Virus record (IMG/VR): IMGVR_UViG_3300023174_000316
Location: 1 to 41,650 of that record
DNA from: a virus
Length of the DNA: 41,650 nucleotides
Reading direction: 5' to 3' (one strand)
Below, in pieces: positions 20,631 to 23,805 of the stretch (positions are counted from its first letter, which is position 1; every line of letters starts with the position of its first letter). The notes under the pieces are model-generated. The model saw only the letters and a program-made list of their open reading frames with translations. It made no database searches and was not told the origin of the DNA. The position numbers and the translations under genes are program-made.

Positions 20631-20640
20631 CATTTTCAAC

Positions 20641-20648
20641 ATAAATAA
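20641..20648 (+). promoter_or_regulatory. Late promoter motif before terminase N-terminal gene
   Basis: ATAAATAA; TAAATA ends 6 nt before the ATG at 20654. Confidence 0.75.
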
Positions 20649-20653
20649 AATTC

Positions 20654-21307
20654 ATGGCAAAGAAAGAAGATGTAAAATTTTATATGGGAAATCAAAATTT
20701 ACCATCTAAAGGTAGTTCCTTTGCATATACATCAGAACAAATTACAGAATTAGAAAAATGTTCTAAAAATATATTACATTTTGCTGAGAATTACTTCCAT
20801 ATTTTAAATGTTGATGATGGTAAGAAAAAAATCAAATTATACAAAGCTCAAAAAAGAGTTTTAAGAAAAATGATGGATAATAGATTCTTCTGTCTTTTAG
20901 CTTCTAGGCAGATAGGAAAATCAACTTTGATGACAATTTATATATTGTGGATAGCTAATTTCTTTTCAGATCAAAGAATATTATTGGTAGCTAACAAAGA
21001 ATCAACAGCTATTGAAATTTTTAGTCGTGTTCGAATGGCATATGAAATGTTACCAAACTGGTTGAAATCACCAGTTATTGAATATGCTAAAACCAGTATG
21101 GAACTTGAAAATAATAGTAGAATAAGCATTACTACTACAACAGGAACAGCAGCTCGTGGACAAAGTGTATCATGTGTGGTAGGCGAATCCATGGTGACTG
21201 TGAGGGATAAATTTTCTGGTCAGATTTGTGATATATCTATGAAAGAATTGGCAGATATTATCAAATCCGATGGTGATGAAATACATACATTGTTAGTTAA
21301 TGTATAA
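20654..21307 (+). CDS. 17: Large terminase, N-terminal part fused to intein N-fragment
   Basis: 217 residues. Residues 1-173 are the first part of the packaging ATPase (T4 gp17): FCLLASRQIGKSTLMT holds Walker A (residues 84-91), and TGTAARGQSVS is the strand leading to Walker B. At Cys174 the protein switches to an intein N-fragment (CVVGESMVTVRDKFSGQICD onward) of 44 residues and stops at 21305-21307. The ORF at 22210 supplies the other intein part and the rest of terminase. Alone this polypeptide could bind ATP but lacks Walker B and nuclease. A late motif precedes it. The gene is fractured rather than decayed, since both halves keep all motifs. Confidence 0.93.
   Translation: MAKKEDVKFYMGNQNLPSKGSSFAYTSEQITELEKCSKNILHFAENYFHILNVDDGKKKIKLYKAQKRVLRKMMDNRFFCLLASRQIGKSTLMTIYILWIANFFSDQRILLVANKESTAIEIFSRVRMAYEMLPNWLKSPVIEYAKTSMELENNSRISITTTTGTAARGQSVSCVVGESMVTVRDKFSGQICDISMKELADIIKSDGDEIHTLLVNV
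21173..21304 (+). other. Split intein N-fragment in terminase
   Basis: 44 codons beginning with Cys (TGT at 21173). Block A reads CVVGESMVTV, the usual C-x-x-G-(D/E)-(T/S)-x-(V/I). The fragment ends before block B (TxxH), which is in the partner ORF. The split therefore lies unusually near the N-terminus, as in the AceL-TerL intein class known from lake metagenomes. Confidence 0.9.
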
Positions 21308-21332
21308 ATGCGGTCTTTTCTATTATGATGCA

Positions 21333-21340
21333 TTAAATAT
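21333..21340 (+). promoter_or_regulatory. Late promoter motif before GIY-YIG endonuclease
   Basis: TTAAATAT; TAAATA ends 5 nt before the ATG at 21345. It supports this start over the in-frame ATG at 21300. Confidence 0.6.
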
Positions 21341-21344
21341 AATT

Positions 21345-22208
21345 ATGAGAGTAAGTTCTATCGAGAGAAAATATAATTATATCTATCAAATAACAAATCT
21401 AATTAATAATAAAATATATATTGGAATTCATAAAACTGATAATTTGGAAGATGGTTATATGGGGTCTGGTTCTTTGATAAAGATGTCGATTAATAAATAC
21501 GGTATTGAAAATTTTAGAAAAGATATTTTGAAATTTTATGAAACATATGAAGAGGCTATCGAAGAAGAGATTCGGTTAGTTACAGAAAGTTTTATCGAAG
21601 ATCCTTCAAATTATAATATCAGAACTGGGGGAGTTAGTCAGATTAAGTGGTCAGATTATGCTAGAGAGAAGTTATCAAAATCTGCAAAAATTTTATGGAG
21701 TGATCCTAACCATATGATTAAAATGAGAGAGGTTTGTTATGATAATCCTGAGAGAAATGCAAAATTAGGGAAAGGTATTAAAAAATGGATAGTTACAAAT
21801 CCAGAAAAACATAAAATTAGAATGGATAAGATAAACAAAAATCCTGAAAAGATTGAAAAAATGAGATTGAAACATGTTGGTATGAAAAGATCCAAAGAAG
21901 CTGTTGAAAATATGAAACAGGCACAATTGAAAATATATTCAGATGATCCGAAGAAAGCAAGTGAATTCAGAGGCAAAGGTAAAATTTATATTCATAATCC
22001 AGTATCTAAAGAAATTAAAAGAATATCCAAAACAGAAAGTATTCCAATCGGATGGGTGAAAGGATCTGGAATTGATAGAAAACAATCACATAAAAATTTA
22101 AATAAAGGAAGTGTTTTTGCTCATGATCCTATAACCTTAAAAAATAAAAGATTTGCGAATAAAGAACAAATTCCTGAAAATTATATAATAGGAAGATTTA
22201 AAAAATAA
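21345..22208 (+). CDS. GIY-YIG homing endonuclease between split-intein halves
   Basis: 287 residues from the ATG at 21345. The frame opens at 21300 and would overlap the intein N-fragment stop, but the promoter motif favours 21345. Residues of about 9-100 are the GIY-YIG nuclease domain: YNYIYQITNLINNKIYIGIH gives the two Tyr strands, GYMGSGSLIK follows, and NIRTGG closes the domain. The C-terminal part has helical DNA-binding segments (RSKEAVENMKQAQLKIY) and two tandem modules ending SIPIGWVKG and QIPENYIIG, each opening with (Y/F)xHxP, as in T4 Seg/Mob-type endonucleases. It presumably cuts intein-less terminase genes and spreads this locus. Confidence 0.9.
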   Translation: MRVSSIERKYNYIYQITNLINNKIYIGIHKTDNLEDGYMGSGSLIKMSINKYGIENFRKDILKFYETYEEAIEEEIRLVTESFIEDPSNYNIRTGGVSQIKWSDYAREKLSKSAKILWSDPNHMIKMREVCYDNPERNAKLGKGIKKWIVTNPEKHKIRMDKINKNPEKIEKMRLKHVGMKRSKEAVENMKQAQLKIYSDDPKKASEFRGKGKIYIHNPVSKEIKRISKTESIPIGWVKGSGIDRKQSHKNLNKGSVFAHDPITLKNKRFANKEQIPENYIIGRFKK

Positions 22209-22209
22209 T

Positions 22210-22551
22210 ATGGCCGATTTCACAACACATAAAACTTACAAAAATAATAGATTTGAAATCTTAACGGATGTAGGTTTCAAAGATTTTAGAGGCATAATGA
22301 TCGGGACAAATCCTGACAAAATTAGATTTACTCTTGATGATGGATTATCGTTAGATTGCACTCCCATGCATAAAATAATGTTAACCCACGATATTTGGAT
22401 ATATGCAAGGAATATAAAAATAGGGGATACATTATACGGTAATATAAAAGTTATCAATATTGAATCATATCAGAATAATGAGTTGGTATATGATTTTTTG
22501 GATATCGAAGATGTTCATAGATACTATGTAAATGGTGTATTATCGCACCAA
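22210..22551 (+). other. Split intein C-fragment in terminase
   Basis: 114 codons. Block B is here (DCTPMHKIM, the TxxH motif at residues 51-54), then YARNIKIGDTL, block F (LVYDFLDIEDVHRYYVNG) and block G (GVLSHQ followed by Cys+1). The last residue is Gln instead of the usual Asn, with the His before it kept. The C-extein nucleophile is Cys at 22552-22554. Confidence 0.9.
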
Positions 22552-23805
22552 TGCCTCATAATTGATGAGTGTGCCTTTATCGAACCACATTTAATGGACC
22601 CATTCTGGGCATCTGTATTTCCAATCGTTTCATCTTCTAAAAAAGCTAAAGTTTTTATGTGTTCTACACCTAATGGAACAGGAAATCTTTTTTATGATAT
22701 ATATAAAGGAGCCGTTGAAAACACAAACAATTGGGAGCATGATAAAATTTTATGGAACGAAGTTCCTGGTCGTGATGAAAAATGGGCTAAAGAAATTAAA
22801 GGTGGATTAGCATCTGATGATAAATGGGAACAAGAATTTAATTGTAAATTTATGAATGCAGGTACTGGATCGATGACAGAAGATGCATACAATAAAATGA
22901 AACAATACATTTCAACTCCTGTTGAAATATTAATGGATGGAAAATACAAAATATTTGAACATCCACAACCAGAGCGTATATATATAGCAGGTGTTGATAC
23001 TTCAGATGGTGTTGGGAGTGATTATAGTTGCATTAAATTATTAGATATAACAGATTTAAATGAAATAATCGAAGTTGCTGAATATTATGATAATACCATT
23101 CCAGTTGCTGAATTTGCTAACAAAGTATATGAAATACTTTGTCATTGGGGCAAACCATTGGTTTGTATAGAAAGAAACAACCAAGGTGGTCAAATTGTAG
23201 ATAGATTAGCATTGGATATGGGATACATGGACAAAATTGTATCTTGGGGTAGCAAGTTAGCTGGTAGAAAAAGCACCCAATTACTTGGTATGATTTCTTC
23301 TAGAAATACAAAATATAATGCAGTTGCAAATGCGAGATATTATTATAATGATAAGTTAGCAGTTCAATTTAGAAATAAAGAATCTTTAGAAGAAATTGTT
23401 AAAGATTTCATTAAATTACCCAACGATACATGGGGAGCTAGTTCTGGGAAACATGATGATAGAACCATGGCTTTGATTTGGGCTTTGATGATATTGCATG
23501 ATGATTTGGTTGAACAATATTTTACTGTTGAAGAATATGATGATTGTGGAAAACCTTCAAAAATAACACTTAATAACTTTGGATTGAAATATTTTGAAAA
23601 TTCAACATCTATATATACCAATGAACAAGTTGATGGTATTGAAAATAGTCAAATAGCTCCTGTGTATTTTGGAAACTCAACAGAATTAAATTCAGATATT
23701 TCAGATTTGTATGCTGAAGGATGGGTCAACTTGGGAGGGGGATTTGAAAACCCAAGATATGATTTAGATTCAGGACAAACAGAATTTATGGATAAATACT
23801 TTTAA
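22210..23805 (+). CDS. 17: Intein C-fragment fused to C-terminal part of large terminase
   Basis: 531 residues. Residues 1-114 are the intein C-fragment ending LSHQ. From Cys115 the terminase resumes: CLIIDECAF is Walker B with catalytic Glu120, and CSTPNGTGNLFYDIY is the coupling motif. The nuclease domain has Asp263 (GVDTSDG), Glu321 (VCIERNNQGG) and Asp416/417 (GKHDDRTMAL), matching the T4 gp17 acidic triad. After trans-splicing with the 20654 product the enzyme would be 590 residues, close to gp17's 610. The terminase translocates DNA at the portal and cuts concatemers. The ORF starts one base after the endonuclease stop; no late motif of its own. Confidence 0.93.
   Translation: MADFTTHKTYKNNRFEILTDVGFKDFRGIMIGTNPDKIRFTLDDGLSLDCTPMHKIMLTHDIWIYARNIKIGDTLYGNIKVINIESYQNNELVYDFLDIEDVHRYYVNGVLSHQCLIIDECAFIEPHLMDPFWASVFPIVSSSKKAKVFMCSTPNGTGNLFYDIYKGAVENTNNWEHDKILWNEVPGRDEKWAKEIKGGLASDDKWEQEFNCKFMNAGTGSMTEDAYNKMKQYISTPVEILMDGKYKIFEHPQPERIYIAGVDTSDGVGSDYSCIKLLDITDLNEIIEVAEYYDNTIPVAEFANKVYEILCHWGKPLVCIERNNQGGQIVDRLALDMGYMDKIVSWGSKLAGRKSTQLLGMISSRNTKYNAVANARYYYNDKLAVQFRNKESLEEIVKDFIKLPNDTWGASSGKHDDRTMALIWALMILHDDLVEQYFTVEEYDDCGKPSKITLNNFGLKYFENSTSIYTNEQVDGIENSQIAPVYFGNSTELNSDISDLYAEGWVNLGGGFENPRYDLDSGQTEFMDKYF

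Follow-up and report, generated by a model that had tools for sequence, protein, structure and literature searches.

How does a bacterial virus obtain a whole packaging motor when the gene encoding that motor is broken in two? The question is raised by IMG/VR record IMGVR_UViG_3300023174_000316, analysed here over its complete length of 41,650 bases (hereafter the window). The record stems from a bacterial virus with T4-type structural genes (tail tube, sheath and baseplate), in which a mobile element breaks the gene of the large terminase subunit (TerL). Our analysis favours, with a probability of about 93%, a fractured terL whose two protein halves would be joined by trans-splicing of a split intein, the N-terminal (IntN) and C-terminal (IntC) intein parts being encoded in separate open reading frames (ORFs) on either side of a GIY-YIG endonuclease gene (Table 1).

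The two halves together account for a gap-free enzyme. The N-extein (173 amino acids, aa) aligned to residues 110-273 of T4 gp17 (E=2e-25) and the C-extein (417 aa) aligned to gp17 up to the nuclease domain (E=8e-26). T4 gp17, which displays the same ATPase and nuclease motifs, is uninterrupted in T4, in contrast to the broken TerL of the window. A profile of uninterrupted TerLs from relatives covered both ORFs without a gap (columns 1-183 in ORF1, where it overran into IntN, and 172-591 in ORF3); therefore, no extein sequence was lost at the break. Joined between SVS and C, directly upstream of Walker B, the exteins form the continuous 590-aa gp17 announced by an earlier note on this DNA. The ORF coordinates of that note, its intein blocks (block A Cys at 21173; blocks B, F and G followed by Cys at 22552) and its Walker A, Walker B and nuclease residues were all recovered, the latter in alignment with gp17. 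The locus accordingly combines a single conserved enzyme gene, a split intein in the break and a complete extein on joining, as in other fractured genes. The insert of 1379 nucleotides (nt) is not a multiple of three, the halves lie in different frames and 58 stops interrupt the IntN frame over the length of the insert, so that fusion of the halves by read-through or frameshifting was ruled out.

Table 1. Coordinates of the fractured terL locus in the window
Feature	Position	Strand	Evidence or remark
Late-promoter-like motif CATAAATA, TAAATA 12 nt upstream of ORF1 start	20640..20647 (TAAATA at 20642)	+	window motif enrichment
ORF1: TerL N-half and IntN	20654..21307	+	T4-type TerL
N-extein, 173 aa, C-terminal end ...GQSVS	20654..21172	+	T4 gp17 2o0h E=1.9e-25; terL profile
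Walker A SRQIGKST	20903..20926	+	gp17 alignment
Tract nearly identical to L004, flanking terL differing by ~10%	21149..22574	.	recent transfer unit, ~22-24 nt co-converted each side
IntN, 44 aa, block A CVVGESMVTV	21173..21304	+	family alignment at same TerL site
Late-promoter-like motif TTAAATA ahead of endonuclease	21333..21339 (TAAATA at 21334)	+	motif enrichment, family comparison
Putative GIY-YIG homing endonuclease gene (alternative start 21300)	21345..22208	+	PF19835 E=6e-7, PF01541 E=2e-4, phrog_314 E=2e-33
ORF3: IntC and TerL C-half	22210..23805	+	
IntC, 114 aa, block B CTPMH, block F VYDFLDIEDVHRYY, block G NGVLSHQ	22210..22551	+	sequence and structure matches
C-extein, 417 aa, first residue Cys+1: CLIIDECAF	22552..23802	+	T4 gp17 3ezk E=7.6e-26
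Walker B LIIDE	22555..22569	+	gp17 alignment
Nuclease acidic residues D (22996-22998), E (23170-23172), DD (23455-23460)	22996..23460	+	gp17 alignment

The intein displayed the atypical N-terminal type of split, being broken between blocks A and B into an IntN of 44 aa and an IntC of 114 aa. Its nucleophile is the Cys at IntN position 1, a residue found throughout the family at this site. IntC carries the block B His (TxxH, here CTPMH) and block F/G (VYDFLDIEDVHRYYVNGVLSHQ), and its His54 and Asn108 were invariant in a 37-row alignment. Its last residue is Gln, not Asn, followed by Cys at position +1. IntN aligned with the IntN of many relatives located at the same TerL site. For IntC, the best match in the Protein Data Bank (PDB) was CatC, the consensus intein of the atypically split type (6dsl; E=2e-10 with one sequence, 7e-15 with the 37-row profile), followed in the profile search by gp41-1 and VidaL. 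An AlphaFold model of IntC with 37 natural relatives as input reached a predicted local distance difference test score (pLDDT) of 94.3 and a predicted template modelling score (pTM) of 0.84; it was used instead of a model from only 10 sequences (pLDDT 61). Foldseek again returned CatC first (TM 0.84, root mean square deviation 1.2 A, E=1e-7), pointing to a Hint fold. Between the window and its relative L006, the ratio of nonsynonymous to synonymous substitution rates (dN/dS) was 0.14 for IntN, 0.14 for IntC and 0.07 for the endonuclease, which indicates purifying selection on all three.

A scan with the IntC alignment recovered 69 viral loci from viral records and no IntC relatives from prokaryote genomes. 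Both intein halves occupied the TerL site of the window in 55 IMG/VR loci (34 after removal of near-duplicates). The break contained a GIY-YIG gene in 34 of the 55, only 8-139 nt in 13 (just 8 nt in L063) and another insert in six. In one locus (L057:4956-5839, on a contig shared with L111), the GIY-YIG gene was broken into two ORFs and both intein halves were open. The remaining one (L124:5317-7533) displayed an unsplit mini-intein in a 739-aa ORF, possibly ancestral to the split intein or re-fused from it. On the intein tree, which is poorly resolved with many weak branches, an intact GIY-YIG gene was gained or lost at least six times. Together with the endonuclease-free loci, these changes suggest that split inteins outlive their endonuclease.

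Among the alternatives, the one that survives best, improbable as it is, holds that the halves form a non-covalent two-subunit terminase and that the intein parts are remnants; 'genes-in-pieces' ribonucleotide reductase is reportedly a precedent for such a split enzyme. The Gln end of IntC and a penultimate residue that differs between family members (H, R, K, E, N) speak in its favour. Yet dN/dS was 0.14 in both intein halves, the Hint fold was predicted intact at high confidence and the break falls within the ATPase core, separating Walker A from Walker B. Likewise, all 55 filled loci displayed Cys at +1, whereas Val or Ile is the usual residue at this position in intein-free TerLs. The same two features of IntC weigh against trans-splicing itself, since they could slow it; some Gln-ended inteins do splice. 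Also to be counted against it are the shortness of IntN and the fact that the window is a 41.7-kb fragment, outside which another terL may lie. Comparison of both intein parts with known split inteins, as proposed in the earlier note, succeeded for IntC through its CatC match; IntN alone, too short for an independent database match, gave no significant match in the PDB. No second intact terL occurred in the 41.7-kb window, and searches for a second terL in three records that bear a split intein of this kind (193, 204 and 111 kb) were likewise negative.

Very improbable is a self-splicing RNA intron with an endonuclease ORF, which would join the exons at the RNA level and whose removal from the mRNA the earlier note had listed as a refuting outcome. 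Group I introns with GIY-YIG genes are common in T4-like phages, the endonuclease of the window displayed a weak match, under cut-off, to TIGR01453 (group I intron endonuclease), and both 'an intein and an intron' have been reported for terL of Campylobacter phage IBB_35 (PMC3322345). Against this, the Rfam search detected no group I or II intron core at the junction: no match reached the gathering score, and a relaxed threshold gave a single chance-level snoRNA match outside the insert. Moreover, both insert ends encode conserved intein halves under purifying selection, the halves lie 8 nt apart in L063 and the intein is unsplit in L124. On our reading, Campylobacter phages CP21 and IBB_35 (L069, L074) display an IntC where the intron had been placed, and in IBB_35 the published intron looks like a split intein with a MobE-like endonuclease. 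The TerL regions of Campylobacter phages contain two or three inteins; in these two phages the sites are at Walker A, ahead of Walker B and past the DE motif. Assembly error or a dead gene is of negligible probability: the window is a single metagenomic contig, but its layout was repeated in independent contigs (L002, L004, L005, L006 and L007, and L049 as far as the endonuclease) and in dozens of more distant ones, every frame is open and dN/dS is low.

Nucleotide comparisons further indicate that the insert moved recently. Between the window and L004, the insert displayed seven differences over its 1379 nt, versus 185 over 1770 nt of terL exteins (P about 6e-39). The last upstream difference was at 21148 and the first downstream one at 22575; therefore, some 22-24 nt of flanking sequence moved along with the insert. 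L013, the closest relative in the C-extein (99.3% identity, and 98.9% just upstream of terL), has no insert at the window site and contains a different split intein 11 aa downstream; its differences from the window terL cluster around the junction. The close relatives L008 and L014 represent the empty allele. Residue +1 is Val in the empty alleles of close relatives, in contrast to the Cys of all filled loci, which suggests that the Cys codon moves as part of the intein unit. Cys+1 was also recorded in a few empty alleles (L020, L024, L027 and L035), where it is possibly a scar of loss or an older state.

Fold, motifs, frames, empty alleles, the unsplit L124, the versions with 8-139 nt, selection and the constant Cys+1 all fit the trans-splicing split intein put forward in the earlier note. 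In the favoured mechanism, TerL would be translated as two proteins, and IntN and IntC would associate and fold into one Hint-fold intein. Cys1 would then attack and the N-extein be transferred to Cys+1; the C-terminal Gln would cyclise, releasing the intein, and SVS and CLI would be ligated, giving a terminase of 590 aa in which a single chain carries both Walker motifs, A and B. At the DNA level, the GIY-YIG enzyme would cut intein-free terL at a putative target near the junction and repair would copy the whole unit (IntN, endonuclease and IntC). Within this scheme, gene structure, fold, motifs, selection, recent transfer and empty alleles were established by the analysis, and association of the fragments, ligation, DNA cleavage and its target site are inferred. 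As far as sequence can tell, there is a strong case that the packaging motor, presumably essential, depends on trans-splicing.

The gene standing free in the break encodes a SegE-type GIY-YIG protein (YIYQ...YIG) in which the catalytic Glu75 and the Y and G of YIG are invariant. The complete gene proposed earlier was supported by PF19835 and phrog_314, its start being probably 21345 rather than 21300, because TAAATA stands at its usual distance from 21345; the same spacing disfavours 21300. NTAAATA occurred 8-22 nt upstream of 17 of the 35 gene starts in the window, mostly at 12-13 nt, and would correspond to a T4-like late-promoter motif; 500 shuffles of the upstream regions gave 1.84 such starts on average and never more than 7. 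Over the whole window, the canonical TATAAATA was not enriched and was rarer than expected, enrichment being confined to TAAATA at a fixed distance from starts. The earlier view of a promoter-linked locus holds for ORF1 and the endonuclease, both preceded by the motif, but not for ORF3, which is not. In 13 of 22 loci of the family, TAAATA was located 9-16 nt ahead of an endonuclease start, and in none of 21 GIY-YIG loci did it precede the IntC ORF. This distribution suggests that the TerL C-half probably depends on transcripts from the two putative upstream promoters.

Other nuclease arrangements were recorded in the family. L061 (142-1080) and L062 (452-1918) displayed, by eye, an HNH-like head, without a Pfam match, on a protein fused in frame to IntN. 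This fusion protein and the GIY-YIG enzymes of the site have C-terminal repeats in common (MDKINKNPEKI...KH.GMKR), which suggests that the repeats may bind the target and that the nuclease head may be exchangeable. In L038 (3432-6272), an endonuclease-like domain, IntC and the TerL C-half form one 947-aa ORF, which overlaps the N-half ORF in another frame.

Dassa et al. are said to have described, in 2009 (NAR 37:2560), fractured genes with split inteins, half of the loci reportedly having Vsr-like endonucleases. There too a split intein breaks a phage gene and a separate endonuclease gene stands in the break; the window differs by its GIY-YIG endonuclease and by a complete locus with flanks, empty alleles and a transfer signature. 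AceL-TerL and GOS-TerL are natural atypical split inteins with an IntN of 25 and 37 aa, respectively, and Cat was designed from them (PMC11766414). Like these three, the window intein lies in TerL and combines a short IntN with an IntC of about 105-115 aa, and CatC, its best match in both sequence and structure, is 33% identical to IntC in structural alignment. Unlike them, the window has an IntN of 44 aa and an IntC ending in Gln.

Related IntC sequences also occurred in 55 records of cultured phages, within TerL wherever the region was read. T4-like phages with a split TerL include Pseudomonas phage PspYZU05, Escherichia coli phages JEP6 and kaaroe and Yersinia phage TG1 (L065, L066, L067, L068), whose IntC, likewise in TerL, is about 35% identical to that of the window. 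In the coliphages and others, the break is located between IDE and CAF, 6 residues beyond the window site. The intervening ORF of JEP6, TG1 and PspYZU05 is Vsr/TnsA-like by eye, in contrast to the GIY-YIG gene of the window, and in kaaroe and Thanatos-2 a non-GIY-YIG protein is fused to the TerL N-half. In the records read, the pieces are annotated as a pair of 'terminase large subunit' genes or as a hypothetical protein, and no intein is named. Considering the known fractured genes, AceL-TerL and GOS-TerL and the breaks in cultured phages, the window locus therefore belongs to an already known kind, and its value lies in its completeness, the evidence of transfer and the surrounding family. 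Since empty, decayed, endonuclease-free and unsplit forms are available together with a relative that has another split intein, one can trace step by step how split inteins arise and pass through their life cycle. The family also contributes dozens of natural split inteins with a short IntN, which can serve as tools, and the related fractures in cultured coliphages make the dependence of DNA packaging on protein trans-splicing testable in laboratory strains.

In some relatives a single TerL contained two or even three split inteins, which would amount to up to four polypeptides. L033 and L063, on one contig, combine the window-type intein with a downstream one, and the middle protein is therefore IntC-CLVIDECAFVE-IntN. 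In L084 (375-6243), three split inteins divide TerL among four ORFs, and each break holds an additional ORF of its own kind: a GIY-YIG gene (PF19835), a TnsA-like gene (PF08722) and one without Pfam match. Its second piece has an extein of only 11 aa, CLVIDEMAFIE, which contains the Walker B motif. L089 displayed the same three breaks, with only a gene of the TnsA-like kind remaining between pieces, and TerL of L053 is in three pieces. L058 (four pieces) and L059 (three) are on contigs 99.4% identical over 6.3 kb and differ by a precise, endonuclease-free split-intein insertion of about 420 nt between QEFE and CAW (L058:6275-6696 versus L059:6272). We consider it likely that, in aquatic T4-like phages, TerL is naturally assembled from three or four separate polypeptides by two or three different split inteins, and that the endonuclease of the window family brings a late promoter also serving the C-half. 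Such assembly would need sets of orthogonal split inteins within one protein; the literature searched contained no description of a natural protein put together by several split inteins, which is no proof of novelty. Besides these split elements, a contiguous large intein was recorded in L006 (1967-3025), L020, L034, L038 and L044, where it splits Walker A between GK and S/T (GK/ALALDT...PTHN/S).
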